38,610 nt of DNA from Prolixibacteraceae bacterium (GTDB lineage Bacteria; Bacteroidota; Bacteroidia; Bacteroidales; Prolixibacteraceae), in the NCBI GenBank assembly GCA_016931385.1, contig JAFGEV010000141.1, positions 1-38,610 on the forward strand. Direction: 5' to 3'. How positions within the stretch are numbered: position 1 is the stretch's first letter; every line of letters starts with the position of its first letter. This document shows positions 7,449-35,266 of the stretch, piece after piece. Made by a program: the position numbers and the translations under genes. Below the pieces are notes generated by a model. It was not told where the DNA came from. It did not search any database and saw nothing but the letters and a program-made list of their open reading frames with translations.

Positions 7449-7511
7449 ACATTTGTGCAAGTTTTTTAAACATTCCTGTCCGTTTTTCAAACCAATTTTT
7501 GTCTAATTTAC
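7449..7511 (+). promoter_or_regulatory. Candidate HTCS operator/promoter, site A (upstream of 7651 CDS)
   Basis: ACATTTGTGCAAGTTTTTTAAACATTCC: half-sites at 7449 and 7470 (21 bp apart); -7-like TAATTTAC at 7504-7511. Confidence 0.55.
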
Positions 7512-7650: not shown

Positions 7651-8646
7651 ATGAGAAATTTTACTTTGATGTTAATTGCTTTGTTAATTGTGGCTTTCAC
7701 TGCCAATGCCCAGGAGGGGACAGCCTACACTGACGATTTCAGTGCTGAAATTGATTACCTTACCGCCGGCGTTGATGGAACCATTTGGGATGGTATCCTT
7801 CTTAATAGCGGCCTTTGGGATATGGGGGAAATAGTAGCTGAGATCACTGCACTGAACACAACCGATAACCCCGGTACACTTACTTTTGCATCGATGAATT
7901 CACATTGGGCTGTAGGCTCCGACAACGGCGCTGCAATTTACCGTACAGTTAAAAATGGAGCCGACTTTGAAGTGCAGGTCAAGATAGCCGGTGGTGATTT
8001 TTTGTCGTTTGGCCTTGCAGAACTTGTGCCTTATCACATGCCGGGTATAATAGCAAAAGTTGCCGATGATACTACTTTCATCCTTATACAGGTTTTCGAT
8101 ATTCAAGACTGGTCGGCTGTAATTGGAATGCGTGATATTGTACCGGCCGGTGATCTTTTACAGGAGAACTGGCAAACAGGCTTCACCCTTGCAGATAACC
8201 CATACATAAAACTTGAAAAATATGAAAACTTGTTTACTGGTTATTACAGCGCCGATGGTGTAGTATGGAATGAAATCTATTCGGTTGAAAAACCCGAATT
8301 TGCAGGCAAGGATATCCAGGTTGGCTTATATTCGGCAACATATACCGAAAGTGTGGGAACCGTTCATTTTGACGATTATTCTATGGTTGATTACAATGAG
8401 CCTGGTGCTGTTAATGTAGCGAAAGAGTTATCCCTTAAAGCTTTCTATAGCAACGGGGCTATCAGGGTTAGCAGTAGCTCGAATTTGGGCAATGTGAAAG
8501 TGTACAGGACCGATGGCTCGCTCTTTTTAAGCAGGGCTAATGTAAATTCATCTCAATTGTCGATACCGGTTCAAAATAAAGGTATTTACCTGCTTTCTTG
8601 TGAAAGTGCAGGCGAAGTGCAAACGCAAAAGGTTTTGGTTTATTAA
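7651..8646 (+). CDS. Secreted LamG/concanavalin-like protein with T9SS type A sorting domain
   Basis: Signal peptide (MRNFTLMLIALLIVAFTANAQ); beta-rich domain with VGLYSATYTESVGTVHFDDYSM; C-terminal VKVYRTDGSLFLSR...NKGIYLLSCESAGEVQTQKVLVY typical of a T9SS domain. Confidence 0.75.
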   Translation: MRNFTLMLIALLIVAFTANAQEGTAYTDDFSAEIDYLTAGVDGTIWDGILLNSGLWDMGEIVAEITALNTTDNPGTLTFASMNSHWAVGSDNGAAIYRTVKNGADFEVQVKIAGGDFLSFGLAELVPYHMPGIIAKVADDTTFILIQVFDIQDWSAVIGMRDIVPAGDLLQENWQTGFTLADNPYIKLEKYENLFTGYYSADGVVWNEIYSVEKPEFAGKDIQVGLYSATYTESVGTVHFDDYSMVDYNEPGAVNVAKELSLKAFYSNGAIRVSSSSNLGNVKVYRTDGSLFLSRANVNSSQLSIPVQNKGIYLLSCESAGEVQTQKVLVY

Positions 8647-8742: not shown

Positions 8743-8834
8743 CTGTTAAGTCAGCCTGATAGCTGTCAAAAATTACATATATTTAAATCGAATTGTTTTT
8801 TAGGTTTCAATTTTCAACAAAGCCGGATATGTGC

Positions 8835-11800
8835 ATGGGGAATTACAGGGATAAAAAGAAAGGTATAATTCGCTTTTTACTGGCAGCACTTTTGTTTGTA
8901 TTTGGCTACGTTAACATACTTCCTGCAAGCGAAGAACCGCTTTCATTTATTCATTATACCAACAAGGACGGATTGCCATCGTCGTATGTGAAAAGCATCA
9001 CCCAGGATCATTACGGTTTTATCTGGCTGGCAACCCGAATAGATGTATGCCGGTTCGACGGAAGAAATTTTCAAACTTTTCCTGCATATAATGAAGAAGG
9101 GGAAAGCTTTAATCTATACTCAAATAAAATATTCTCATGTGCCGATTCAACCCTGGTTTGCCGTACAAATGAAGGAAGTTATTTTTATTTCGATTTTGAG
9201 CTTGAATGCTTCAAACCCTACAAACTCCTGAACGATGTGCTTTCGGTTCAGTCAGTTGAGCCTGTCGGGGGCGGATATTGGATTTGCCGCGACAATAAGC
9301 TTTATTTTCTCGATTCGAGAAATGGCATGTTAACCGAGATAAAAGATATGGTTACTTTTGGAAGTATACCCCCGCAAGTGGTTTTCACCGATGTTAGGGA
9401 AAGAAACGGCGATTTGATTGCCCTTACCGATGACAGGCTAATTATTTTATTCGATTTCAAATTGTCGAAAATTAAAACCTTCAAACTTCCCGATTATTTT
9501 TCAGGCCTTTCAATTTCTTCATTTTATGTCGATGCCTGGAAAAATGTGTGGGTGGGCGAGGAGGCAACAGGTTTGTTCAGGCTAAACCTCGAAACAGGCG
9601 ATAACGAACGCTATTCAAAAAATTCACCAACCGACAAACGTTTATCCCACAATATGGTGCATACATTTGTTGAAGATAAAATCGGAAGGCTTTGGATAGG
9701 TACCGAGGGCGGGCTAAGCATCTGGCACCCCGAAACAAATAAATTCTCATATTGCAGGTATGAACTTGAAAATCCATCGGGTTTGAACACCGATCCGGTT
9801 TACGATGCATTTTGCGATGATAACGGGAATATTTGGCTGGGAACCTATTTTGGAGGGATTAACTTCTGGGATGCCGAAAAAAGCTTCTTTAAAACCTGGA
9901 AATCGGGCACAGGCAACAGGCAGCTTGGAGGAAACGTAGTAAGCTGCCTTCGTGAAGACGGGGACGGAAACCTTTGGATAGGGCTGGAAGACATGGGGCT
10001 GAACAAGCTTGACCTTATCTCAGGAGAAATTCAGAAATATACCAGCAATACCGATGGAAAAGGTTTGTCGTACAACAACCTTCATGATTTGTTATTTGTT
10101 ACCGACAAGGAACTCTGGATAGCTACATATACAGGGGGAATTAACATTTTAAACACTATAACAGGGAGGTACAGGTATATTAATCAGAAAAGCCATCCCG
10201 GTTTGCCATCCGATAACGTATATGCTTTTCTACCTTTAGGCGACTCAATTTTTATTGCTACTACCGGAGGAATAGCGATTTATAATTTAAACACATCCAA
10301 TATTTCAATTTTTCATCCCGAAGAATTAAATCTTTTCCAGTTTGAGAGTATCTGCCGAACCAGGAACAGGATATGGTTCTCGTGCTTTGAATACATTTTT
10401 TATTACGATTTGATCGAAAAGAAACTGAACAGGTTCAGTAATGTTACCCAATCGTGGAGTAACAATTTTGTAAAATCCGATTCAAAAGGGAGAATATGGG
10501 TTGGCAGTTGTTATAACGGTTTGTACTGCTACGACGAAACAATCGATTCAATTCGATTTTTCAACCCACAAAACGGATTTCCTGTTTCATGGATTTTCAG
10601 CGTTGAAGAGGCAAAAGATGGCTGGTATTGGGCCAGCAGCGACAAAGGCCTTGTTAGGTTTAACCCTGAAAAAGATGTATATGTATTGTACGACAGCAAT
10701 TCAGGCATACCTTTTAACCAGTTTAATTACAGGGCATCGTACAAAGACAATTGGGGAAATATTTATTTTGGTGGGAACAACGGGATGGTTTCTTTCAATG
10801 AAAACGACAATCCGAATGTGGCAAAAAAGCTTGATGTATTTTTCACCGGCCTTCAGTTGTTCAATAAGGTTGTCAGCCCGTTGGAAGAGAAATCGCCTCT
10901 GAAGAAATCAATCAATGAAACTGAATTGATAAAGTTCGACTATAACCAAAATGTGTTCACCCTTGAGTTTTCGGCATTGAGTTATTCAAACAATGGGAAT
11001 TGCCAATATGCTTATTACCTCGAGAACTTTGAAGAAAATTGGAATTACGTAGGTAACCGCGATTTTGCCACGTATACAAACCTGAGCCCTGGCACCTATT
11101 TTTTCCATGTAAAAGGATCGGTTGGGAACATTGCTGATGAAACCAACTTCAGGACACTGAAAATAGTTGTAAAGCCACCTTTCTGGCTATCAATCTGGGC
11201 ATTCATTGTTTATTTCATTCTTGTATGGGTTGTGTCGATTTTGATTTATACCGTTGGTAAAAGTTTTGAAAAATCGAAGGCATTGGTTGCTATGGAACGG
11301 CGCGAAAAAGAACATGCCAATGAAATACATCAGGTTAAACTCGAATTTTTCACCAATATTTCGCACGAACTTAAAACGCCTCTAACGCTTATTATAGGGC
11401 CCTTAAACGCCATCTTGAAAGAAGAAAAGTTAAGCCCTTTTATAAAAAAACGTCTGATGGGAATTGAAAAAAATGCACAACGCCTTTTTAACCTCATTAA
11501 CCAGTTGCTTGAGTTCAGAAAAATTGAAACAGGAAGGGAAAAACTACAGGTTGCCCGTTGGGACCTTGATACAATTTCGTTCGAAATAGCTGATTCATTT
11601 CAATCGGTTGCTGAAAATAAGAACATCGAATTTACAGTAAAATTTAATTGCGAGGAAAGAGTGGTATGGCTCGATGTGAACAAGGTTGATAAAATTATTT
11701 GCAACCTACTGTCGAATGCATTCAAATATACGCCCTCGGGGGGTAAAGTTGAATTAACCTTCGACATTGTGCAACGTGATAAAAAACGAAACCGCAAACC

Positions 11801-12911
11801 GCTTTATGATTTACTGATTACAGTTTCGGATACAGGTAAGGGCATTAAACGTGAAATGCTCGATAAGGTTTTCGACCGCTTTTTCCGTATCGACAAGGAA
11901 GCCTTAAATGAAAAAGGGTCAGGTATTGGGCTTGCTTATTTGAAAAGCCTGGTTATTGTTCACCGGGGTTCAATTGAAGTGAAAAGCGAAGATAATAAAG
12001 GATCGGTATTCAAAGTGCTGTTACCTGTGTCACAATCCGATTATTCAAACGATGAACTTGAATCGTCTTCCATACAATATATTCCATCACCTGAAGAAAT
12101 TGAAGTTGAAACCGAAGAAGAAAAAATTGCAGATTTTGACGATGCCACCGGGTTTTCGCACGACCCGGTTGTTTTGCTGGTTGAAGACAATTCTGAACTT
12201 CTCGATTTCATGAAAGATATTTTGCAGGACAAATACCAGGTTTACACCGCGCAAAACGGAATTGACGCTCTAGGTAAAATGAAAACAATTTTTCCCGACA
12301 TGGTCATCAGCGACATTATGATGCCGGAATTGGATGGGCTGGAACTAACGAAACATATAAAATCGGATATTGCCACATCACATATCCCCGTAATTCTTTT
12401 AACCGCCAAAAGTGGTGCAAAAAACATATACAAGGGATTGAAAACCGGGGCCGACTTGTATATTGAAAAACCCTTTGTGCCTGAAATTCTTGAGCAGAAC
12501 ATCGAAAATATCCTGAATACGCGCAAAATGCTTATACAACGTTTTCGCGATAATGCCTTCGCCTCTGTTAGCGATGTAGCCCACAGCGAATCGGATAAAG
12601 TGTTTATTGAGAAAATGACCGGCATAATTAAGAAAAACATCAGCGACCCAAACCTCGATGTAACATTCCTTGTGAGAGAAATGGGCATGAGCCGCTCACT
12701 GATTCATATAAAACTTAAAGGATTGCTCCAGTGTTCAACCACTGAATTTATTCGTTCCATCCGCCTTAGGGAAGCTGTAAAGTTGTTATCCGACGGGACA
12801 TACAACATTTCAGAAGCCGCTTACGAAACAGGTTTTTCAAGCCCGACCTATTTTACCCGACGTTTTAAAGAATATTTTGGTAAATCGCCCAGGGAGTATT
12901 TCAACGTATAG
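8835..12911 (+). CDS. Hybrid two-component system regulator (HTCS): periplasmic Reg_prop/Y_Y_Y sensor, HisKA, HATPase, receiver, AraC-type HTH
   Basis: Repeated two-bladed-propeller motifs (DRIGRLWIGTEGGLSIW, GNLWIGLEDMGLNKLD); TM segment WAFIVYFILVWVVSILIYTV; H-box FFTNISHELKTPLTLI; receiver DMVISDIMMPELDG; C-terminal AraC helices EAAYETGFSSPTYFTRRFKEYFGKSPREY. Start uncertain (TTG 8793, ATG 8829 or ATG 8835). Confidence 0.95.
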   Translation: MGNYRDKKKGIIRFLLAALLFVFGYVNILPASEEPLSFIHYTNKDGLPSSYVKSITQDHYGFIWLATRIDVCRFDGRNFQTFPAYNEEGESFNLYSNKIFSCADSTLVCRTNEGSYFYFDFELECFKPYKLLNDVLSVQSVEPVGGGYWICRDNKLYFLDSRNGMLTEIKDMVTFGSIPPQVVFTDVRERNGDLIALTDDRLIILFDFKLSKIKTFKLPDYFSGLSISSFYVDAWKNVWVGEEATGLFRLNLETGDNERYSKNSPTDKRLSHNMVHTFVEDKIGRLWIGTEGGLSIWHPETNKFSYCRYELENPSGLNTDPVYDAFCDDNGNIWLGTYFGGINFWDAEKSFFKTWKSGTGNRQLGGNVVSCLREDGDGNLWIGLEDMGLNKLDLISGEIQKYTSNTDGKGLSYNNLHDLLFVTDKELWIATYTGGINILNTITGRYRYINQKSHPGLPSDNVYAFLPLGDSIFIATTGGIAIYNLNTSNISIFHPEELNLFQFESICRTRNRIWFSCFEYIFYYDLIEKKLNRFSNVTQSWSNNFVKSDSKGRIWVGSCYNGLYCYDETIDSIRFFNPQNGFPVSWIFSVEEAKDGWYWASSDKGLVRFNPEKDVYVLYDSNSGIPFNQFNYRASYKDNWGNIYFGGNNGMVSFNENDNPNVAKKLDVFFTGLQLFNKVVSPLEEKSPLKKSINETELIKFDYNQNVFTLEFSALSYSNNGNCQYAYYLENFEENWNYVGNRDFATYTNLSPGTYFFHVKGSVGNIADETNFRTLKIVVKPPFWLSIWAFIVYFILVWVVSILIYTVGKSFEKSKALVAMERREKEHANEIHQVKLEFFTNISHELKTPLTLIIGPLNAILKEEKLSPFIKKRLMGIEKNAQRLFNLINQLLEFRKIETGREKLQVARWDLDTISFEIADSFQSVAENKNIEFTVKFNCEERVVWLDVNKVDKIICNLLSNAFKYTPSGGKVELTFDIVQRDKKRNRKPLYDLLITVSDTGKGIKREMLDKVFDRFFRIDKEALNEKGSGIGLAYLKSLVIVHRGSIEVKSEDNKGSVFKVLLPVSQSDYSNDELESSSIQYIPSPEEIEVETEEEKIADFDDATGFSHDPVVLLVEDNSELLDFMKDILQDKYQVYTAQNGIDALGKMKTIFPDMVISDIMMPELDGLELTKHIKSDIATSHIPVILLTAKSGAKNIYKGLKTGADLYIEKPFVPEILEQNIENILNTRKMLIQRFRDNAFASVSDVAHSESDKVFIEKMTGIIKKNISDPNLDVTFLVREMGMSRSLIHIKLKGLLQCSTTEFIRSIRLREAVKLLSDGTYNISEAAYETGFSSPTYFTRRFKEYFGKSPREYFNV

Positions 12912-12973: not shown

Positions 12974-13035
12974 ACATTTGTTTTAGTTTCCTGAACATTT
13001 GTGATTCTGTTTAGCCTGATTAACACATTATTTTG
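12974..13035 (+). promoter_or_regulatory. Candidate HTCS operator/promoter, site B (upstream of 13063 CDS)
   Basis: ACATTTGTTTTAGTTTCCTGAACATTTG: half-sites at 12974 and 12995 (21 bp apart); -7-like TTATTTTG at 13028-13035. Confidence 0.6.
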
Positions 13036-13062: not shown

Positions 13063-15036
13063 ATGAAGCTGACATTTTTCTTTGCAATATCAATGTTTGG
13101 TTTTTTTATTATCGGATGTTCTTCAAAAACTGAGCATCTGGAGAAACCAAACATTCTGCTAATTACTACCGAAGGGCAGGCATGGGAAGATGTTCCCTCG
13201 CAAATGCCTTTTTTGAAAATGCCGGCCCTTGAAAAGCTAATTGCCGAGGGAGTTGTTTTTCAGAACCATTATTCCAATGCACCTTTATGCCAGCCTGCAA
13301 AGTATACCATAATCAGTGGATTGTACCCTCATCAGCATCACTTGATGGAAGAAAGTGGCAACTGGTTGCCCGAAAACACCCAGGTTTTAATGGAGTATTT
13401 ATCCGAAATGGGATATTTCACAGCCGGTGTTGGCAAGATGGATTTTAAGCCCTGGGAACGCATGGCTGGTTTCGATATGCGCATTTCGGCCGAAGGCCTG
13501 GGCGAGAACCAAAGCGATACCCTGAAACACGATGATTATTACCATTTCCTGAAATCAGCAGGTATGTCACGGCTCGATTATCTTGAAAAACTTGAGTATC
13601 CCGAAATAGACCAAATAGCCGCATGGCCCTTTAACGATTCGCTGCATATCAATTCTTTTATTGGTAAAGCTGCTTGTAAATTCATCGAAGAAAGATGTGA
13701 TATTCAAGCGAAACCTTGGTTTTTATGGGCATCATTTGCAGGCCCCATGTATCCCTGGATGCCTCTGAAGAAAAACTTCGATGAATATTTGAATGTTGAA
13801 TTTCCGGGGTGCAGAACTGTTGAAAAGGAGCTAAGGAATAAGCCTTTCGACCACACAGTTACCAGGTATAAATATATGCGCAGTATAATTGATTACATCG
13901 AAGAAAATCCTCTTGAGGAAAATGAAACCATTTCAAAGGTAAAAGCTGCCCATTATGCCTGTCTCTCCGATATTGATACATGGATAGGGAATATCATGGT
14001 TACCCTTGAAAAAAAAGGAATGATCGATAATACTGTGCTTGTATTTACCAGTACCCAGGGGGCATTAACAGGCGATCATTTTAACTTTAACGGGGGTAAT
14101 GCATATGAACGTGCTGCACATGTACCCTTTCTCATTTGGATGCCCGGTAAAAACGAAAGAAAAAATATTACCGGTTTTACATCTCATGTAGATATTTTAC
14201 CAACAATTATTGAACTGGCAGGAGGCGAACGCCAAAACGACAATATTGAAGGGAAATCGCTGGTGCCGGTTTTATCGGGCGAAGTTACAGGAAGCAATCA
14301 TGCCTTTATCGAAATTATGAATAACTATTCGATTGTTACAGCAGCTTATAAACTTGGGTTTTATACACCATATAAAGAAGCTGAATTGTACAACCGCCTG
14401 GAAGATGCCAATGAAATCAGAAATGTGTTTAATAATGATAAATACAGGGATATTATCGACTCATTAGCCTTGATCATGACTGAACATTACCAACACTTAA
14501 ACGAAGTAATGGCTGAAAGGAAGGAATATCAATCGCCGGTTACTTTTGTTGAGTTACGCCAGGGCAAAAGTGCAATTGACGAAAAAGCACCATACATTGC
14601 CAATAAGCCCTTTAAAATGATGGCTGAACTTGATATTTCTGAAAATGCATCAGGACCGGTTGTAACATACGATGTGGGTAATATGCATGGTTTTTCGTTG
14701 TTTCTCGACAAAGGCTATCTTTGTTTCGGGATCAGAAAGTGGGGAAGGGATGAGATTTTCAGGGTTTCGCAAAAAACTGGCGGAAGGAACGTTAAAATTA
14801 CCTTTGATATGAAAAACAACGGCACTTTTATCATTTCTTCGCCTTCGTTGGAAAAAACGTATAGCTTCAAATCCGACTGGCCAATTCCTGAGCCAACAGG
14901 GCGCCCTGAATATTTTTCTAAGTCATTATACGCAGGAATTTCCGGTGAAGGCTGGACTAAACCTTATGGCAACCTACCCTGGGGAAAGGATCTTGACGGT
15001 GAAGTAAAATCATGCCTCATATCAGTTGGTTATTGA
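13063..15036 (+). CDS. Sulfatase-fold lipoprotein with divergent active site
   Basis: Lipobox FFIIGCSS; alkaline phosphatase/sulfatase-like layout (PNILLITTEGQAWEDVP, NAPLCQPAKYTIISGLYPHQHH, VFTSTQGALTGDHFNF...YERAAHVPFLIWMPG, HVDILPTIIELAG); C-terminal beta domain. Several canonical catalytic or metal residues replaced (see findings). Confidence 0.8.
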   Translation: MKLTFFFAISMFGFFIIGCSSKTEHLEKPNILLITTEGQAWEDVPSQMPFLKMPALEKLIAEGVVFQNHYSNAPLCQPAKYTIISGLYPHQHHLMEESGNWLPENTQVLMEYLSEMGYFTAGVGKMDFKPWERMAGFDMRISAEGLGENQSDTLKHDDYYHFLKSAGMSRLDYLEKLEYPEIDQIAAWPFNDSLHINSFIGKAACKFIEERCDIQAKPWFLWASFAGPMYPWMPLKKNFDEYLNVEFPGCRTVEKELRNKPFDHTVTRYKYMRSIIDYIEENPLEENETISKVKAAHYACLSDIDTWIGNIMVTLEKKGMIDNTVLVFTSTQGALTGDHFNFNGGNAYERAAHVPFLIWMPGKNERKNITGFTSHVDILPTIIELAGGERQNDNIEGKSLVPVLSGEVTGSNHAFIEIMNNYSIVTAAYKLGFYTPYKEAELYNRLEDANEIRNVFNNDKYRDIIDSLALIMTEHYQHLNEVMAERKEYQSPVTFVELRQGKSAIDEKAPYIANKPFKMMAELDISENASGPVVTYDVGNMHGFSLFLDKGYLCFGIRKWGRDEIFRVSQKTGGRNVKITFDMKNNGTFIISSPSLEKTYSFKSDWPIPEPTGRPEYFSKSLYAGISGEGWTKPYGNLPWGKDLDGEVKSCLISVGY

Positions 15037-15089
15037 ATAACTATTATTGGAGGCGTTAAAACTTAAAGTATTGAAGCGAGATAATTAAT

Positions 15090-16475
15090 ATGTTCGATAA
15101 AAAAATATATATCGGTAGGAGGGCTGTTTTAAAAGAGAAGCTTCAAAGTGGTTTGGTACTGCTTTCAGGAAATTCCGAAAGCCCTGTGAATTACGAGGGC
15201 AATCCTTACCGGTTCAGGCAGGATAGCACATTTTTATATTATGTGGGCATTAAGCTTACATCCCTTGCACTCGTAATTGACATTGAAGGCGATAAAGAAA
15301 TCCTTTTTGGCAACGAACAGACAATCGACAGTGTTGTGTGGAACGGTAAACTGCCTTCAATACATGTATGGGCTGAAAGAAGCGGAATTGAAAATGTTGC
15401 CCCTTTTAAAGATTTAAAAGTATACCTGCAGGAAGCATCGGATTTAAAAAGGACGATACATTTCATCCCACAGTACCGGGGCGAAAACAAAATTTTATTT
15501 CATGAGCTTCTCGGACTGCCAGTGCAAAAAATTGAAACAGGGTATTCTGTCGAATTGGTAAAGGCAATCGTTGCCCAGAGGGAAGTGAAGGTAAACGAAG
15601 AAATTGCTGAAATTGAAAAGGCTGTTAATATATCGGTTGAAATGCACACGGCTGCCATTAAATTTGCACGTCCCGGGATGCGTGAATACGAGGTGGCTGC
15701 CGAAATTCATAAAGTTGCGCTTGCCGCAGGGGGCGACCTGGCATTTCCGATCATCGCCACAAAAAATGGCCAGATTCTTCATAATTATTCCCAAACTTCT
15801 GTTATTGAAGAAGGCGATTTGTTCCTTGTCGATGCCGGTGCTGAAGTGCCCTCAGGCTATGCAGGAGACCTGTCGTCAACTTTCCCTGTTTCAAAAACTT
15901 TTGCTGCCATTCAAAAGGATATTTATGCAATTACCCTTGAAGCCCATTCGTCTGCTGTTAATACCTTAGGGCCTGGTGTCAATTTTCGTGAAGCACATTT
16001 GAATGCGTGCAGGGCCATTGTTGTTGGTTTAAAGCAGCTTGGACTGATGAAAGGTGATCCCGAAGAAGCATTGGTGAACGGAGCACATGCCTTGTTTTTC
16101 CCTTGCGGCACAGGACACATGCTGGGGCTTGATGTGCACGACATGGAAAACCTGGGCGAAAAATGGGTAGGATACAATGGTGGCGAACACAGCACACAAT
16201 TCGGCCTAAAATCGTTAAGGCTTTCAAAACCGCTAAAACCCGGCTTTGTGCTCACAATTGAACCAGGTATATATTTTATTCCCGATTTGATTGAAATGTG
16301 GGCTGCAAATAAAATGCACAGCCATTTCCTGAATTATCCCGAAATATTGAAATTTAAGGATTTTGGCGGTATCAGAAATGAAGAAGATGTTTTGATTACC
16401 AGCACCGGGGCACAGGTTTTAGGAAAACCTTTTCCAAAATCGATAAACGATATTGAATTGATGCGAAGAAATTAA
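15090..16475 (+). CDS. M24B aminopeptidase P / Xaa-Pro aminopeptidase-like
   Basis: N-terminal aminopeptidase P-like domain (NPYRFRQDSTFLYYVGI); M24 metal ligand motifs FLVDAGAEVPSGYAGDLSSTFP, CGTGHMLGLDVHD, LTIEPGIYF, GGIRNEEDVLIT. No signal peptide. Confidence 0.93.
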   Translation: MFDKKIYIGRRAVLKEKLQSGLVLLSGNSESPVNYEGNPYRFRQDSTFLYYVGIKLTSLALVIDIEGDKEILFGNEQTIDSVVWNGKLPSIHVWAERSGIENVAPFKDLKVYLQEASDLKRTIHFIPQYRGENKILFHELLGLPVQKIETGYSVELVKAIVAQREVKVNEEIAEIEKAVNISVEMHTAAIKFARPGMREYEVAAEIHKVALAAGGDLAFPIIATKNGQILHNYSQTSVIEEGDLFLVDAGAEVPSGYAGDLSSTFPVSKTFAAIQKDIYAITLEAHSSAVNTLGPGVNFREAHLNACRAIVVGLKQLGLMKGDPEEALVNGAHALFFPCGTGHMLGLDVHDMENLGEKWVGYNGGEHSTQFGLKSLRLSKPLKPGFVLTIEPGIYFIPDLIEMWAANKMHSHFLNYPEILKFKDFGGIRNEEDVLITSTGAQVLGKPFPKSINDIELMRRN

Positions 16476-16578
16476 CCTTTTCCAAAAATAAGATTGCATA
16501 TTGCAAACCAATGGATTTAAAGAGAGATTATTAAACCAATTAAACCAAAACCTGTAAAGCTTTATTGTTTAGGCTTTC

Positions 16579-19500
16579 ATGTTCTTAAATAATTTTTTTA
16601 TGACTTATCGTTTACTTTTTGTTTTACAAATTTTTCTGGTTTTATCGTTGAAAAACATTTTTGCACAAATTAATTTTAACAAGGGGGCTGAATACAGGTT
16701 GTTGAAGGGGATCAGTACGGTTGACCTGCCTGAGAACTGGATGGCTGACGGATCGGTCTCTGCAGGATGGGATGTCGCATTTGCTCCTTTTCGGTATGGT
16801 GACGGTGATGGCGGTACCGAATTATCCGATATGAGGAATTACTATTCGACTTTTTACCTTCAAACAAAATTCACAGCCCAAAACATTGATGCTATCAGTT
16901 CAGTTAATTTCAATATTTCGTACGATGACGGGTTTGTTTTATGGATAAACGGTGAGGAGGTCATTCGCCGGAATGCCCCTGTATCATTAGTGCCCGGGGC
17001 TTTGTCTCCTGAAAACCATGAGTGGAACGATCCGCTCTCTATTGACCTGGCTGTTGAAAACCTTCCGATTATTGAGGGTGAAAACCTGGTAAGCATACAG
17101 GTTTTTAATACAACCCTGGGCAGCTCAGATGCTTACTTCGATATGGGCATCATGGGAAATGTCGTCCAGCCTGAACTTCCAATGGTCGATGCTGAGGGGA
17201 TTTCACTTACATTCAGTCATAATGCCGGATTCTATGCCAATGCTTTTGAATTGCAGGTAACTGCTTCAAACGATGCTTTCGGTGTAATCTATACCGTTGA
17301 TGGAAGCAACCCGCAAACATCGGCTACTGCAATTAAGGCCGGTTCTGTTGTTGCCGTTACTGTCGATCCGGATTCGGAAACAGGAAGAGGCAGGACTCCT
17401 GCATTTATCGTCCGTGCTTCTTTATGGAAAGAAGGTTTCAGCCCGGCTTTCCCTGTTGGAAATACCTATATTTTTCTTGATAAGGTTCCTGAACAAAGTA
17501 ATCCGGGTGGGGGCTGGCCTTCTGGCTCTGTAAACGGTCAGCGCATCGATTATGATATGGCTGCCGACATCGTTACCAACAGCAAATATTCTTCGATGAT
17601 GGGACAGGCGCTGTTGGAAATTCCCTCAATTTCGATCAGCACCGATCTTGATAACCTTTTTGGTTACAGCCAGGGTATCTATGTGAATGCCTCACAAAAA
17701 GGAGAGGAGTGGGAAAGGGATTGCTCAATTGAATTGATAAACCCATCGGGGAAAGAAGGATTCTCGGTTAATGCCGGGCTTAGGATCAGGGGAGGGAACA
17801 GTGCAAAAAATTCAAACAACCCAAAACACGCTTTCCGTTTGTTTTTCAGAAAAGAATACGGCGAAGGTAAACTGCATTATCCGCTTTTTGATGATAAGGG
17901 AGCCAGTGAGTTCGACTGCTTCGACCTGCGTTGTGAACAAAACTATTCGTGGAGTATGGACGGTGATCCGCAGAATACGTTGATAAAAGACATTTACTCA
18001 CGTGATATGCAACAGCAGATGGGGCATCTTTCGGCTAAAGGCGAATATTATCATTTATACCTGAACGGGATGTACTGGGGCATTTTTCAAACAGATGAAC
18101 GCCCTGAAGCAAGTTTTGCCGAATCGTACCTGGGCGGCGATAAGGAAGATTACGACATTGTAAAAGTAAACACCCAGCCGTGGCCATATTATAACGAGGT
18201 TACCGAAGGAACAATGGACACATGGGAAGACCTCTGGAATTTGTGCAGAACAGGTTTTCAAACAAATGAACAATACTTCAACCTTGAGGGAAAGGACAAA
18301 AACGGGAAACGCATTCACGATGCCCGGGTCTGGGTCGATATCGATAACCTGATTGATTTCCTGCTGATCATTTTTTATACAGGCAATTTTGATGCACCGG
18401 TTTCGGCCTGGGGCGGCAACGACATGCCCAACAATTTCTTCGCTATCATTAACCGCGAGAACTTATCGCAGGGATTCAAGTTCGTCGCCCACGATTCGGA
18501 ACATTGCATGTTCGTTGATGAAAAAAATATCGATAATGGTATACATGAAAACCGTGTTAACATTGGGACTACGGGCGCCATGAAAATTAACCGCCTTCTC
18601 GATTTTAACCCACAGTGGCTCCATTACAGGTTATGCCAGAATGAAGAATACCGTTTGCGTTTTGCCGACCATGCATATAAATATTTATCAGAAGGCGGAC
18701 TGTTTTCTCCCGATACTGCCCATTGGTATTTTGAAAGACGTGCTTTGGAAATCGATACGGCCATTGTTGCCGAATCGGCCCGTTGGGGCGATGCACAACA
18801 ATGGGGAGGCTCATTAAACAGGGATGATCACTGGCTGGCCGAACTTGAAAATCTGTACGATAACTATTTCCCGTATCGCACCGATATTGTAATCGGACAA
18901 CTTCAGGATGAAAATCTTTATCCACAGTACAATGCGCCTCGCGTTTCAGCAGAAGGAACGACTGTGGTTGAAAACAGGCATTTGTTTTCAGCGGAGGTGT
19001 CGGTTACTGTTGATAGAAACAACCCAACGGGCGATATTTATTTCACAACCAATGGCGCCGACCCCAGGCTGCCGGGTGGAACAATTTCGCCCGATGCAAT
19101 TAATGGGGGCAAAAGCACCTCTTTCCAACTGACTTCAAATACTTTATTTAAGGGAAGGGTAAAATCGGGCAACGCCTGGGGAGCTTTAAATACAGTGCTT
19201 TTTGTAAAACAGGAACAGGATTTTTCAAAATTTAAAGTTACCGAACTCGATTATCATCCGCTTGATATTATCGATGGAGTAGATACCATTGATCAAAAAA
19301 ACCTGGAATTTATCGAGTTTAAGAATACAGGTAGTGAAGTGCTTGATTTGTCAGGCTTAAAACTCGATTCAGCCGTTACATTTACATTTCCTTCAGGTAC
19401 ATTGCTTTTCCCCGGCCATTTTTATGTTGTTGCCTCAAAACCTAATTCTTTCTTCCGTCGTTTTGGGAGGTACCCCGACGGCAACTTCCAGGGACAGTTC

Positions 19501-19992
19501 GGTAACAGTGGCGAATATGTTTTATTAACTGATAAAAATGGAAAAGAGATACTTTCGTTTACCTACTCCGATCAGCTTCCCTGGCCGGTTGAAGCCGACG
19601 GTACAGGTTATTCCCTTACTTCGGTTGAAGATGACCCGAAAGGTGACCCCAATAACGTTGCATACTGGAAATTCTCATCGGCATTAAACGGTTCGCCTTT
19701 TGCAAACGACGATGGTTCAACTTCTTCAGACGATAATCCTTTTGCCTTAAAGTGTGATGTGAGGGTTTATCCAAACCCGGCTTCGGGTTTCATAAAGGTT
19801 TCGGTAAAGGGTACAGAAAATATTGTTGTTACTTGCTTTGATTTGCAGGGAAGGCTTAAGTTTAAAGAGGAGATTCTTTCAGGTGAAAAAATCGATTTGT
19901 CACCCTTTAGTCTCGATAATGGTTTGTATATACTTAGGATATTTGCAGGCGACAATATTTTTACCCAAAAGCTTGAGTTTATAGTCATTTGA
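16579..19992 (+). CDS. Secreted CotH-kinase-family protein with chitobiase-C-terminal-like segments, lamin-tail-like domain and T9SS sorting domain
   Basis: CotH-like region NAGLRIRGGNSAKNSNNPKHAFRLFFRKEYG...HLYLNGMYWGIFQTDERPEASFAESYLGGD; FGVIYTVDGSNPQ and GDIYFTTNGADPR repeats; lamin-tail-like NLEFIEFKNTGSEVLDLSGLKLDS; C-terminal VRVYPNPASGFIKVSVKG...LDNGLYILRIFAGDNIFTQKLEFI. Confidence 0.87.
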   Translation: MFLNNFFMTYRLLFVLQIFLVLSLKNIFAQINFNKGAEYRLLKGISTVDLPENWMADGSVSAGWDVAFAPFRYGDGDGGTELSDMRNYYSTFYLQTKFTAQNIDAISSVNFNISYDDGFVLWINGEEVIRRNAPVSLVPGALSPENHEWNDPLSIDLAVENLPIIEGENLVSIQVFNTTLGSSDAYFDMGIMGNVVQPELPMVDAEGISLTFSHNAGFYANAFELQVTASNDAFGVIYTVDGSNPQTSATAIKAGSVVAVTVDPDSETGRGRTPAFIVRASLWKEGFSPAFPVGNTYIFLDKVPEQSNPGGGWPSGSVNGQRIDYDMAADIVTNSKYSSMMGQALLEIPSISISTDLDNLFGYSQGIYVNASQKGEEWERDCSIELINPSGKEGFSVNAGLRIRGGNSAKNSNNPKHAFRLFFRKEYGEGKLHYPLFDDKGASEFDCFDLRCEQNYSWSMDGDPQNTLIKDIYSRDMQQQMGHLSAKGEYYHLYLNGMYWGIFQTDERPEASFAESYLGGDKEDYDIVKVNTQPWPYYNEVTEGTMDTWEDLWNLCRTGFQTNEQYFNLEGKDKNGKRIHDARVWVDIDNLIDFLLIIFYTGNFDAPVSAWGGNDMPNNFFAIINRENLSQGFKFVAHDSEHCMFVDEKNIDNGIHENRVNIGTTGAMKINRLLDFNPQWLHYRLCQNEEYRLRFADHAYKYLSEGGLFSPDTAHWYFERRALEIDTAIVAESARWGDAQQWGGSLNRDDHWLAELENLYDNYFPYRTDIVIGQLQDENLYPQYNAPRVSAEGTTVVENRHLFSAEVSVTVDRNNPTGDIYFTTNGADPRLPGGTISPDAINGGKSTSFQLTSNTLFKGRVKSGNAWGALNTVLFVKQEQDFSKFKVTELDYHPLDIIDGVDTIDQKNLEFIEFKNTGSEVLDLSGLKLDSAVTFTFPSGTLLFPGHFYVVASKPNSFFRRFGRYPDGNFQGQFGNSGEYVLLTDKNGKEILSFTYSDQLPWPVEADGTGYSLTSVEDDPKGDPNNVAYWKFSSALNGSPFANDDGSTSSDDNPFALKCDVRVYPNPASGFIKVSVKGTENIVVTCFDLQGRLKFKEEILSGEKIDLSPFSLDNGLYILRIFAGDNIFTQKLEFIVI

Positions 19993-20100: not shown

Positions 20101-20163
20101 ACATTTATACAAGTTTTTTGAACATTTGGGACTGTTAAAAAAGTACAGAATCATGTTATTTAC
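20101..20163 (+). promoter_or_regulatory. Candidate HTCS operator/promoter, site C (upstream of susCD operon)
   Basis: ACATTTATACAAGTTTTTTGAACATTTGGG: half-sites at 20101 and 20122 (21 bp apart); -7-like TTATTTAC at 20156-20163. Confidence 0.65.
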
Positions 20164-20212: not shown

Positions 20213-20422
20213 ATGATGATTTTAACAAGCATGTTAAGGGAAGATAAGTACAAACCGCAGCAACTCCGTTTTGTTTGCCCTGTGTGTGAAAAATTTGTAA
20301 GCACGAAAGAATGGGAAGATTACGGAATGCATTTTCACTGTACCGAATATTATTTATCGGGGAGGTATCTAAAAGAAATTGAAATGAAAAAAGAAGGGAA
20401 TATACATCTAATAAAACTATGA
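20213..20422 (+). CDS. Small Cys/His-rich ORF (69 aa) in the susCD operon leader
   Basis: ATG start about 50 nt after the -7-like element of site C; stop 3 nt before the SusC ATG (20426). Sequence ...RFVCPVCEKFVSTKEWEDYGMHFHCTEYYLSGRYLKEIEMKKEG contains a CPVC...HFHC pattern. No family recognised. Confidence 0.5.
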   Translation: MMILTSMLREDKYKPQQLRFVCPVCEKFVSTKEWEDYGMHFHCTEYYLSGRYLKEIEMKKEGNIHLIKL

Positions 20423-30119: not shown

Positions 30120-31019
30120 ATGAAGAAAATATTTTGGATACTGATAATTGCAGTCGTAGCAACAAGTTGCTACGATGATTTCAGGATTGACCACACCTTC
30201 TCAAGTATTGCATTTTCACGTGCCGACGGAGGATCGAATGTTGAAGGTGTATTGCACCGTACCGTAGTGAAAGACGAGGGATTGCAGCTCGACATGGGGC
30301 TAAATCTCACAGGCATTCTTGAAAATGAAGAAGAGCATTGGGTAGGGTTTGAGATTGATCCTTCGCTGCTCGAAGAAACAGGCATAAAAACTTTAGGGTA
30401 TAAACTTATGCCCTCTGACTATTATTCATTCAGCAACGGCTCAAAATTCATTATCGAGGCTGGTTCAATACTTGGAAAAGTGACTGTAATCATCGATTCG
30501 GCAAAATTCCTGAATGACCCGCTTTCCTTGAAGCACCGATATGCGATTCCCTTCAGGTTAACCGATACCTCAGCCGATTCAATCAATTCAGAATTGGATA
30601 CGAAGATTTTGGTAGTAAAATACATTAACCATTTCGAAGGCTATTACGACCAGACAGGTACCGTAACCAGTTTCGATGCAGGCGGCAGCCAAACAGGTAC
30701 AACAAGTCTTGAGAATGTGATAACGCTTACCACTACGAGCCTCGACACGGTTGTGTCTGATGGCATGATGAACCAGATAGGTTCAGATTTTGCAATGAAA
30801 ATTGTTGTGAATTCCGATAATTCGGTAAACATTGGAAACACTGCAGGTTCGCAAAGCAACATGGTAACTGAAAACGGTGATTGTAAGTTTAATGGGGAAA
30901 CCTCAACCTTTACTTTAAATTATAAGGTTACAAGTACCGATGGAACCTATAAAAATGTTTCGTCACAAATGGTTTGGCGAAACCGCATCCGCGATGGAGT
31001 GAATGAATGGCGCAGATAA
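30120..31019 (+). CDS. DUF1735-like surface lipoprotein, last gene of the susCD operon
   Basis: Lipobox IIAVVATSCYDDF; VGFEIDPSLLEETGIKTLGYKLMPSDYYSFSNGSKFIIEAGSILGKVTVIIDSAKF...HRYAIPFRLTD pattern typical of DUF1735. ATG at 30120 likely start. Confidence 0.75.
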   Translation: MKKIFWILIIAVVATSCYDDFRIDHTFSSIAFSRADGGSNVEGVLHRTVVKDEGLQLDMGLNLTGILENEEEHWVGFEIDPSLLEETGIKTLGYKLMPSDYYSFSNGSKFIIEAGSILGKVTVIIDSAKFLNDPLSLKHRYAIPFRLTDTSADSINSELDTKILVVKYINHFEGYYDQTGTVTSFDAGGSQTGTTSLENVITLTTTSLDTVVSDGMMNQIGSDFAMKIVVNSDNSVNIGNTAGSQSNMVTENGDCKFNGETSTFTLNYKVTSTDGTYKNVSSQMVWRNRIRDGVNEWRR

Positions 31020-31030
31020 TTTAATGGTTT

Positions 31031-31143
31031 AAAAGGGGGCTGTAATAATTTAGGCTTTCAGCCTGATATAAATAGCTTATAACTTTCAATCTGTATTTAT
31101 ATAAACAAAGGGACTGACTTTTGAGACAGCCCCTTTTTTTTTC
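31031..31143 (+). terminator. Candidate terminator of the susCD operon with long internal loop
   Basis: GGGGCTGT (31036-31043) pairs with ACAGCCCC (31126-31133), followed by TTTTTTTTT; small nested hairpin AGGCTTTCAGCCT near 31052. Confidence 0.55.
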
Positions 31144-31306
31144 TTTGCTTACAATTATAAGTCATTTATAATACGAATCGGTATTTGAAACAGCTCCATG
31201 TTTTTTCTTTGGTTACTTGTTTGTGAGAGCATTTAGGTTGCACCGAAACAGCTTATCACGGAATGCCGGGAGGTAAGGGAAGCTTTTACAGGAAAAAAAC
31301 AGTAAA

Positions 31307-31368
31307 ACATCCGTGCCACTTTTTTGAACATTTGATTCACTCTGTATGATACTTTTTTTCAATATTTG
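31307..31368 (+). promoter_or_regulatory. Candidate HTCS operator/promoter, site D (no ORF downstream)
   Basis: ACATCCGTGCCACTTTTTTGAACATTTG: half-sites at 31307 and 31328 (21 bp apart); -7-like AATATTTG at 31361-31368. Confidence 0.5.
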
Positions 31369-31374
31369 ATTGTG

Positions 31375-31525
31375 AAAAATAAATAAGCCAAATAAAGGTG
31401 ATAGTATAAATTCACGGTTGTTTATTGAAATTTAGGTTAGAAAAGAGAAAAACACATTTTGTATTTTTAATTAACATTGGTTATTAGTAGTTATTAGTCC
31501 TCGTTTTTATGAGGACTTTTTTTAT
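31375..31525 (+). ncRNA. Candidate small non-coding RNA between site D and an intrinsic terminator
   Basis: About 150 nt with no convincing ORF, bounded by promoter-like site D and the AGTCCTC-GTTTTTAT-GAGGACT-T7 hairpin. The 5' end is an estimate. Confidence 0.35.
31496..31524 (+). terminator. Intrinsic terminator
   Basis: Perfect 7-bp stem AGTCCTC (31496-31502) / GAGGACT (31511-31517), 8-nt loop, followed by a T run. Confidence 0.75.
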
Positions 31526-31559: not shown

Positions 31560-31697
31560 TGGGCTAAAGCCCCGGGGAGTGCATATGTCAGTTATATCCT
31601 CCGCCTTGAAAGGCGGAGTTAGTAAATATGATACCTTTAATCACTTTTTGAACAGTCTCATAAAAGCAGAGTACAGATAAAATGTGAGCTTCAGCCC
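31560..31697. repeat. Composite palindromic element, copy 2 (degenerate)
   Basis: TGGGCTAAAGCCCC at 31560, internal hairpin CTCCGCCTT-GA-AAGGCGGAG followed by TTAGTAAA, degenerate right end TGAGCTTCAGCCCA (31684-31697). Confidence 0.6.
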
Positions 31698-31700
31698 AAA

Positions 31701-32633
31701 TTATCCGCCAATAAACACTGTTAACCCCGCTTTTATAAAAATATCCCTTGCCTGTTTAATTTCTTCTTCAAAAGGTTCTATCAGTTGTTTAAAATTGTAT
31801 TCTTTCCCCAGCCTTTTATATTTGCCTGACGCAATATTGTGGTAGGGCAGCAGGTTAACTGTTTTCTTTTCACCTGCAAGTTCAGCAATAAATATGGCGC
31901 TTCTTTCCAGATTCTCAACATCGGTATTGATGCCTCCGATCAATGGTATCCGTAAGTTGATTTCAGCACCTGTTTTTGATAGCTCCTTCAGGTTTTTTAA
32001 AATCAATTCATTCGAAACACCGGTGTATTTTTTATGTTTCATACTGTCGAACAATTTGAAATCGTAAAGGAACAGATCGGTATGTTTTGCGGCGTTTATA
32101 ATATATTCTGTTTTTGTGTAGCCCGATGTATCAACTGCCCTGTGAAATCCCTGCTCGCCGCAGGCTTCAAGCAGCTCCATCAAAAGTTGATAGTGCATGA
32201 AAGGTTCACCTCCTGAAAATGTAACACCACCTCCCGACTGGTCGAAAGCCAACCTGTCTTTTTCAAATATTTTCAGAAGTTCAGCAACAGAATAATTTTT
32301 CCCGCTGATCTCGATGGCTTTTGACGGACATACTTCTGAGCAAATTCCACAAAGAGAACATTTACTATTGTCGGAAACAATGCCTTGAGGCGTAAGGGTC
32401 AATGCCTGGTTCGGGCAATTTTTTACACACTCCTGTGCCCCGATGCATTTCGATTTCCAGTACATCTTTTCTTTTCGGGGTGAAAAGCTTTCAGGATTGT
32501 GGCACCAGATACAACTGAGCGGGCACCCTTTTAAAAAAACAGTGGTGCGGATACCCGGCCCGTCGTTTATTGAATAATGCTTTATGTCGAATATCAGGCT
32601 TTCAAGCCTTTCTATTGTATCAGTTTGATTCAT
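31701..32633 (-). CDS. Glycyl-radical-enzyme activating protein (radical SAM, PflA-like with two extra 4Fe-4S motifs)
   Basis: KGCPLSCIWCHNPESF (CxxxCxxC radical SAM motif); CIGAQECVKNCPNQAL and CSLCGICSEVCPSKAI ferredoxin motifs; GGGVTFSGGEPFMH. Confidence 0.95.
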   Translation of the reverse strand: MNQTDTIERLESLIFDIKHYSINDGPGIRTTVFLKGCPLSCIWCHNPESFSPRKEKMYWKSKCIGAQECVKNCPNQALTLTPQGIVSDNSKCSLCGICSEVCPSKAIEISGKNYSVAELLKIFEKDRLAFDQSGGGVTFSGGEPFMHYQLLMELLEACGEQGFHRAVDTSGYTKTEYIINAAKHTDLFLYDFKLFDSMKHKKYTGVSNELILKNLKELSKTGAEINLRIPLIGGINTDVENLERSAIFIAELAGEKKTVNLLPYHNIASGKYKRLGKEYNFKQLIEPFEEEIKQARDIFIKAGLTVFIGG

Positions 32634-32830: not shown

Positions 32831-35266
32831 TTAGCCAAACGATTCATTGATTGTCCGTTCAATGATCTCAGTTTGCAGGTCATCGTTCATGTCGTTGAAA
32901 TAATCGCTGTAACCGGCCATGCGCACCATCAGGTCTTTGAATTCCTCCGGGTTTTTGCGGGCTGCTTCCAGTGTTTCGGCATCAACAACATTAAACTGTA
33001 CATGATGTCCTCCAAGTGTAAAATAGCTGCGGATGAGGCTGCCAAGTTTCATCAGATCCTGGTCGGTTTTTAACAGGCCTGGCAGAAAACGCAGATTAAG
33101 CAACGTGCCCCCTGATTTTACCTGGTCGAGTTTGCCAAGGGAGCGGATTACAGCCAGTGGCCCGTGTGTGTCGCACCCATGCGAAGGCGATGTGCCATCG
33201 GAAATCGACTTGCCTGAGAAGCGGCCGTTTGGTGTTGCTCCTGTAACTTTGCCAAAGTAAATGTGGCAGGTTGTCGAAAGCATGTTCAGGTGGTATTTGC
33301 CGCCCTTTATGTTCGGTTTACCATCGATAGCCTTTAGTAGGTCGTTGTATACCTTTACAGCAATTTCATCGGCATATTCATCGTCGTTGCCAAAAAACGG
33401 TGTACGGTTAACAATGGTTTGCCGTAACACTTCTTCTCCCTCAAAATCCTTTTCCAGCGCCGAAAGCAATTTTTCCATACCAAAGGTTTTGTTTTCGAAC
33501 ACATGTTTCTTCAATACCGAAAGGCTGTCGGTAACGGTTCCAAGCCCGGTACACTGTATGTAACTGGTGTTATATCGGGGCCCGCCATCGTAGTAGTCCC
33601 TGCCTTTTGCAATGCAGTCGTCAATTACCACCGAAAGGAATGGGGCAGGGGCGTATTTGGCAAACATCCGGTCGATGTAGTTGCTGACTTCAACCTTAAG
33701 GTCAATTATGTAGTTGAGTTGCCTTATAAAAGCAGAATATAAGTCTTCATAACTTTTGAAGGTCAACGGATCGCCTGTTGCTAATCCGGCAACTTTACCG
33801 CTTAACGGATCAATGCCGTTATTCAGGGTAACTTCAAGAATTTTGGGCACATTCAGGTAGCCTGTAAGCAGGTAGGCTTCTTTCCCAAAAGCGCCCACTT
33901 CAATGCAACCGCTGCACCCGCCTTCCCTGGCATCATGAATGCTTTTTCCCTGCAATATTAATTCCTGAATGTACACATCGGGATTAAAAACCGAAGGGTA
34001 GCCATATCCCCTGCGTATTACCTCGCATGCACGTTTAAGGAATTTGTCAGGTGTTTTCGAACTGATGTGTACCGAACAACCAGGCTGAAGAATGTGTAGT
34101 TCTTCCAGCACTTCAAGCAATATGTACGAAACTTCGCTGACGGCGTTGGTCCCGTCGGGCCTGATGCCGCCAATGTTAATGTTGGTAAAGTCGTTGTAGG
34201 TTCCGCTTTCGCGGGCAGTAATACCAACCTTAGGAGGCGCAGGGTGGTTGTTTACCTTGATCCAGAAACACGAGACAAGTTCTATGGCCTGTTCCCTTGT
34301 AAGTGTACCTTCGCTAAGTTCATTGTTGTAAAACGGTTCAAGGTGCTGGTCGAAATGGCCCGGGTTCATGGCATCCCATCCATTGAGTTCGGTAATAGTA
34401 CCCAGGTGTACAAACCAATACATCTGAATGGCTTCCCAGAATGTTCGCGGCGCATGGGCCGGTACCCAACGGCAAACGTCTGCAATTTTCAGAAGTTCGG
34501 CTTTCCGTGTCTCGTTATTTTCTTTTGCAGCCATTTCTTCGGCCAGTTGTGCATGCCGTTCGGCAAAAATGATGCTTGCATCGCACGAGATGTCCATCGA
34601 TTTTAAAGTTTCAAATTTATCGGTAGCTTCCGGGTCGTTCATGAAATCGAGCCGGGCAATGTATTCGGCAATTTCTTTTTTGAAATCAAGAAGCCCTTTC
34701 TGATAAATTTTCCCGTCGAGGGTGGTATGGCCTGGCGCCCGCTGTTCCATGAATTCGGTAAAAAGACCGGCTTCATAGGCTGCCTTCCATTCTTCGGGTA
34801 CATGTCCGAAAATACGTTCACGTTGCGTGCGGCCATTCCAATATGGAATGATCTCTTTCTCGTAGGTCTCAATATCTTCAGGTGCAACAAGGTAACGCTG
34901 CATATCACGTGTATTAAGCACTTGAAGGTCCTCAACACTGTGGCAGGTAAGTTCGGGAAACGTGGGTACAGCCTTCGGCTTAGGGCCACGCTCGCCAACA
35001 ATCAATTCCCCGGCGCCGATATAAATGGTTTTTTTCGAACAGATTTCTTTGTACGTGAGCGCCCTTAAAACAGGGATCGAATATTTCCCGTAGTTTTCTT
35101 TATAGAAGTTGGTCTCGATTACTGCCCGTTCAATCGATATTGAAGCTTCTGTTTCAACTGAAAGTTTTCGGAGTCTTTTTATCCTGTTATTCATTCCAGG
35201 ATCGTTGCTGATGCTTTTTTCCTGTTTTTCAGGAGGAGTGAAATTTATCTGATTATCGGGTGACAT
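32831..35266 (-). CDS. Glycyl radical enzyme, trans-4-hydroxy-L-proline dehydratase (HypD)-like
   Basis: Glycyl radical motif MVRMAGYSDYF; active-site GGCSGCIEVGAFGKEAY (Cys-x-Glu dehydratase type, not the Cys-Cys of PFL). Overall resembles HypD as I recall it, including EQRAPGHT, ELNGWDAM, ESGTYNDF and LLTGY segments. GRE family is firm; HypD subfamily is tentative. Confidence 0.85.
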   Translation of the reverse strand: MSPDNQINFTPPEKQEKSISNDPGMNNRIKRLRKLSVETEASISIERAVIETNFYKENYGKYSIPVLRALTYKEICSKKTIYIGAGELIVGERGPKPKAVPTFPELTCHSVEDLQVLNTRDMQRYLVAPEDIETYEKEIIPYWNGRTQRERIFGHVPEEWKAAYEAGLFTEFMEQRAPGHTTLDGKIYQKGLLDFKKEIAEYIARLDFMNDPEATDKFETLKSMDISCDASIIFAERHAQLAEEMAAKENNETRKAELLKIADVCRWVPAHAPRTFWEAIQMYWFVHLGTITELNGWDAMNPGHFDQHLEPFYNNELSEGTLTREQAIELVSCFWIKVNNHPAPPKVGITARESGTYNDFTNINIGGIRPDGTNAVSEVSYILLEVLEELHILQPGCSVHISSKTPDKFLKRACEVIRRGYGYPSVFNPDVYIQELILQGKSIHDAREGGCSGCIEVGAFGKEAYLLTGYLNVPKILEVTLNNGIDPLSGKVAGLATGDPLTFKSYEDLYSAFIRQLNYIIDLKVEVSNYIDRMFAKYAPAPFLSVVIDDCIAKGRDYYDGGPRYNTSYIQCTGLGTVTDSLSVLKKHVFENKTFGMEKLLSALEKDFEGEEVLRQTIVNRTPFFGNDDEYADEIAVKVYNDLLKAIDGKPNIKGGKYHLNMLSTTCHIYFGKVTGATPNGRFSGKSISDGTSPSHGCDTHGPLAVIRSLGKLDQVKSGGTLLNLRFLPGLLKTDQDLMKLGSLIRSYFTLGGHHVQFNVVDAETLEAARKNPEEFKDLMVRMAGYSDYFNDMNDDLQTEIIERTINESFG

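Follow-up and report, generated by a model that had tools for sequence, protein, structure and literature searches.

An orphan HTCS-regulon promoter and a candidate regulatory RNA beyond the end of a Prolixibacteraceae PUL

INTRODUCTION

HTCS proteins are major switches of Bacteroidota glycan loci. The stretch of DNA analyzed here (38,610 nucleotides of contig JAFGEV010000141.1 from a Prolixibacteraceae bacterium, referred to as the window) carries a PUL with an HTCS regulator, a sulfatase, an Xaa-Pro-type aminopeptidase, a CotH-type protein, two SusC/SusD pairs, and a BT_3987-like protein, whose gene is the last of the PUL and ends at 31019. Three promoter sites of this PUL (A, B, and C) are linked to genes. 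A fourth, site D, opens a unit (31307 to 31523) that is located in the intergenic region between 31019 and the next gene boundary at 31701, which raises the question of what a regulon promoter drives when no gene follows it. Judged from the sequence, the best reading is that unit D specifies a non-coding RNA, about 150 nucleotides (nt) long and regulated together with the PUL, as the original prediction had proposed. The coordinates of the features are collected in Table 1.

Table 1 Features of the PUL regulon and of unit D (window coordinates)
Feature	Position	Strand	Remarks
Site A	7449..7476	+	Gene-linked (gene at 7651)
HTCS regulator	8793..12911	+	Reg_prop sensor, Y_Y_Y, HisKA, HATPase, receiver, AraC-type HTH (Pfam)
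Site B	12974..13001	+	Gene-linked (sulfatase at 13063)
Site C	20101..20128	+	Gene-linked (SusC1 operon, 20426 onwards); kept in orthologous PULs
Site D, upstream half-site ACATCCG	31307..31313	+	
Site D, downstream half-site ACATTTG	31328..31334	+	21 bp after first half-site
-7-like element AATATTTG (sigma-ABfr type)	31361..31368	+	TTTG at offset 58, as in A, B, and C
Predicted non-coding transcript D	31374..31523	+	About 145 to 150 nt; putative start; no ATG before terminator
10-bp tandem repeat GTTATTAGTA GTTATTAGTC	31480..31499	+	Motif common to D and orphan unit E (contig C94)
Intrinsic terminator AGTCCTCGT-TTTT-ATGAGGACT + T run	31496..31523	+	One direction only

RESULTS AND DISCUSSION

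Site D in the HTCS regulon

Sites A, B, C, and D consist of direct half-sites of the ACATTTG type, and their spacing is exactly 21 bp in each of them and in a fifth site on another contig (site E, see below). Each of the four window sites also has TTT(G/A) at an offset of +58, counted from its first half-site. The resemblance of site D to the gene-linked sites in spacing and in its -7-like element, on which the original prediction was built, is thus borne out. When a scoring matrix was trained on sites A, B, and C only, with D left out, site D scored 25.2 bits and ranked 4th among 77,082 window positions, the next best score being 8.8. These features agree with published descriptions, in which the direct-repeat distance of HTCS motifs averages 21 bp upstream of PUL genes (PMC3878776) and the sigma-ABfr -7 consensus is TAnnTTTG (PMC7366714).

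Genome-wide, the 58-offset pattern gave 9 matches against 0 for reversed-pattern controls, and D matched with 0 mismatches. Eight of the nine are A, B, C, D, E, a GH127 site (C94), and the sites of a second GH127-like gene (C282) and of a DUF6055-like gene (C396, assigned by eye); the ninth (C241), before a 233-amino-acid (aa) protein of unknown function, is a less certain member. A looser, earlier pattern lacking the offset matched controls about as often as real sequence, so the specificity resides in the combination of half-sites and offset. Across about 1.6 Mb of PUL loci, the other high-scoring sites nearly all precede a gene, and orphan sites are therefore not common noise.

The HTCS encoded in the window is proposed to be the activator of all sites. 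Site C is kept before SusC1, along with the same HTCS, in related genomes and loci (G080, L062, L063, and G029/G092); D itself is not conserved. From its sequence, the site D promoter almost certainly belongs to the HTCS regulon of this PUL. In another orthologous PUL (L074), a regulon site at position 572, between HTCS and SusC1, precedes a 238-aa protein that reads by eye as a Crp/Fnr-type regulator.

A short, terminated transcript predicted from site D

No coding sequence is present between 31369 and 31496. The longest sense frame inside the D transcript is 20 aa from a TTG, and the only ATG sits in the terminator loop; the proposed lack of an ORF after site D stands. The TTG frame (20 codons, 31425 to 31487) is what would speak for a unit that encodes a very short peptide, but it is not common to D and E, and neither unit has an ATG before its terminator (in E, by reading of the sequence), which makes this explanation highly improbable.

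The predicted clean terminator was likewise found. Its stem-loop (31496 to 31517) has 9 pairs, 4 of them G-C, and a loop of 4, followed by a T run. A stem of this kind with at least 8 bp arose downstream in 10 of 2,000 dinucleotide shuffles, with G-U pairs counted as allowed, and terminators of this strength number only 3 in the whole window. The tandem repeat is also present, but it does not lie just before the stem as first described, since the two overlap by 4 nt, the AGTC that ends the repeat also opening the stem.

It could be asked whether this terminator serves the PUL operon instead. Orthologous operons carry a terminator of their own directly after the last gene; at that place the window has a repeated element of about 100 bp whose ends, GGGGGCTGT and ACAGCCCC, form a stem with a T run; the terminator at 31496 therefore most plausibly serves D. 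It has no other obvious client, because the downstream gene, a glycyl-radical activase (31701 to 32633), is convergent to site D and the orthologous operons terminate right after their last gene.

Unit D thus combines a -7 promoter, no ORF, and an intrinsic terminator that follows at a distance of no more than a few hundred nt, the features by which intergenic small RNAs (sRNAs) are recognized. From these we infer transcription and its start site, and a short, terminated non-coding transcript from D is quite likely. Once the terminator is removed, the predicted fold of the D body is no more stable than those of shuffled sequences (z +0.58), which counts against an sRNA.

A related orphan unit on contig C94

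When the promoter site was searched for with mismatches allowed, an orphan site E appeared at C94:6804-6777(-), the start of a unit that spans C94:6804-6604(-) and adjoins a GH127/DUF6055 operon just downstream. Unit E has the 21-bp half-site spacing, TTTG at offset 58, and no ORF. Its repeat reads TTATTAGTTAGTTTATTAGT, then CTTATTAGTCATAAGG, and its terminator, AGAGGATAAC...GTTATCCTCT at C94 6631-6604, is strong (4 of 2,000 shuffles), the fold of the unit having a z of -4.5. The tandem pattern TTATTAGT-N0-6-TTATTAGT has 2 matches in the 4.59-Mb genome, at D and E only, and 7 matches in all across 40 other genomes; the pattern was written after both units had been seen, whereas the D repeat itself had been reported earlier, before E. 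Matches in five other genomes were inspected and rejected, having neither such a promoter before them nor a clear terminator after them.

Three properties of the pair weigh against the sRNA reading. Similarity between D and E is limited to short words (the 9-mers TTATTAGTC and TAGAAAAGA), site E is the lowest of the accepted sites at 19.7 bits, and E lies on another contig than D in a draft genome that is 86% complete. A separate site downstream of E, before GH127 and DUF6055, scores 34.4 bits. Orthologues of these two genes are found inside the G080 version of the PUL (68% and 52% identity), where GH127 has its own regulon site before it. Most likely, therefore, a single regulon includes both D and E.

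Regulon promoter membership, the missing ORF, the terminator, and a second unit with a common repeat can all be read from the DNA, and D and E together speak for functional non-coding RNAs under HTCS control and against a defunct promoter. Site D might instead act mainly as DNA, a decoy that titrates the HTCS and yields a short RNA as a by-product, and full HTCS half-sites without a gene would suit this role. A -7 element in exact register and a strong terminator of its own, both present in D and E, would however be superfluous in a decoy; we consider this explanation very unlikely. The reading of D as a functional regulatory RNA, one of two related units, is the one that we favor with moderate confidence.

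Lineage restriction and the leftover-promoter alternative

A DNA search of 60 relatives for homologues of the D RNA gave only short AT-rich matches that proved unrelated on inspection, and a search with E likewise gave no homologue. One same-genus match to E was set aside, as it covers only the promoter half-sites and is followed by neither the repeat nor a clear terminator. The D flanks show no similarity to those of sites A to C or to orthologous intergenic regions beyond the site itself. Orthologues of SusC2 were found in four genomes (G080, G029, G092, and G171) and those of SusD2 in about twenty GTDB species genomes, and a contig scan with the last operon protein returned no loci; D and E were not seen in the orthologous PULs, and both were found only in this genome. 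Lineage-restricted sRNAs are usual; of the 49 high-confidence intergenic sRNAs in Bacteroides thetaiotaomicron, 27 are strain-specific (PMC7366714).

The original prediction had named a leftover promoter as the alternative, in which the D-driven gene or cassette was lost or moved, so that what is left consists of its promoter, a fragment of the 5' leader, and the terminator. Genes have indeed moved, as the sulfatase-CotH pair directly follows the last operon gene in G080 and lies upstream here; repeat-element debris occupies the intergenic region (31036 to 31137 and 31561 to 31625), and the lack of D in orthologous loci would fit as well. Yet no coding remnant and no similarity to site B or to the sulfatase or CotH leader were found, and since the G080 sulfatase has no regulon site before it, D is not obviously something that a moved cassette left behind. 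The intact site and terminator weaken this explanation further, as does orphan unit E, which has the repeat too and would require two parallel relics, and we regard it as unlikely. The proposed PUL-co-regulated RNA of about 150 nt gains support from the regulon promoter and from the second unit with the same promoter geometry, repeat motif, and terminator, but not from the 60 relatives or the orthologous PULs.

In one orthologous locus (L062, 1322 to 1490), a second regulon-like site (1322, 22.4 bits) stands right after the HTCS gene, with a 10-bp-stem terminator within about 100 nt and then the SusC1 site. This is a possible third orphan unit, counted as suggestive only, because a terminator directly after the HTCS gene may simply end the HTCS transcript.

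A possible feedback arm and its relation to known systems

D and E are probably a pair of regulatory RNAs switched on with the sugar genes. In the proposed mechanism, a glycan would activate the HTCS, which would turn on the PUL genes and both RNAs together, and the RNA made from the D promoter would be short (about 145 to 150 nt), would not be translated, and would end at the intrinsic terminator. Its most likely role is post-transcriptional tuning, in which the UUAUUAGU repeats, either by themselves or together with an RNA-binding protein, would target mRNAs that belong to the regulon. The action in trans, its target, and its sign are all proposals; susC1 is the first target candidate, which would amount to negative feedback on transporter synthesis. 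CUAAUAA, complementary to UUAUUAG, occurs at -18 of susC1, in only 1 of the 22 start regions examined, and duplex energies of D with susC/susD and other starts were not significant (susC1, p 0.41). More tentatively, D and E may be founding members of an undescribed sRNA class inside a PUL HTCS regulon, with the tandem UUAUUAGU as seeds and feedback on the regulon's transporter mRNA. If true, an HTCS-driven sRNA would give the PUL a built-in post-transcriptional feedback arm, and such RNAs could be found from DNA alone by searching for a terminator after an orphan HTCS site.

The two-component-to-RNA logic proposed here is that of enterobacterial OmrA/OmrB and MicF, where the RNA that adjusts the synthesis of outer-membrane proteins is turned on by a two-component regulator; the phylum, the regulator architecture, and the RNA sequence differ, and the target here is a proposal.

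Among Bacteroidota sRNAs, FopS/GibS of B. thetaiotaomicron are short, mostly intergenic, multicopy RNAs linked to PUL control, and FopS base-pairs with susC mRNAs close to their start codon (PMC11697453). The predicted D RNA resembles them in being a short RNA with a single-stranded body and an intrinsic terminator, in occurring in more than one copy, and in its PUL link. FopS RNAs, however, are about 65 to 70 nt long, respond to bile salts, and have canonical sigma-ABfr promoters (PMC11697453), whereas D would be about 150 nt and has an HTCS site. An Rfam search of D gave no match at the gathering threshold, in a copy from which the FopS entry may be absent, and a permissive search gave only sub-threshold matches to unrelated families. 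DonS-type RNAs, as cited in PMC7366714 and PMC10994844, are non-coding RNAs of 78 to 128 nt tied to PUL operons and antisense to susC-type genes; they share with the predicted D RNA the non-coding nature and the tie to a PUL operon, but D lies past the operon end in the same orientation, overlaps no gene, and is not antisense. The described HTCS regulons of Bacteroides are lists of protein genes (PMC3878776); their 21-bp direct repeat is common to D and E, the difference being that the D and E sites have no gene.

Gene context of the locus

The glycyl radical enzyme gene at 32831 to 35266 (-) encodes a trans-4-hydroxy-L-proline dehydratase, HypD (NF043068, 1,189 bits against a cutoff of 1,100), and the gene at 31701 to 32633 (-) is likely the HypD activase, its best match, yet below the cutoff. 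HypD and its activase, the Xaa-Pro aminopeptidase, a DPP-IV-type peptidase, a GH27 alpha-galactosidase, and the regulon GH127 beta-L-arabinofuranosidase suggest the use of hydroxyproline-rich plant glycoprotein of the extensin type; a literature search for the HypD/peptidase/GH27/GH127 combination found no paper.

The sulfatase and CotH genes (window 13063 to 19992, compared with L041/L042) are upstream of SusC1 in the window, but in G080 they follow the BT_3987-like gene, a rearrangement within the PUL. The MITE-like repeated element of about 100 bp at 31036 to 31137 has 11 matches in the genome and more in the same genus, with a degenerate partial copy at 31184 to 31216. REP-like palindromes (GGGCTAAAGCCC and CCTCCGCCTTGAAAGGCGGAG) occupy 31561 to 31625 and have extra copies on contigs C147, C305, and C267. 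The SusC1 leader is long (about 260 nt) and contains a possible 69-aa ORF at 20213 to 20421, which starts with MMILTSMLREDKYKPQQLRF and whose end adjoins the SusC1 start.
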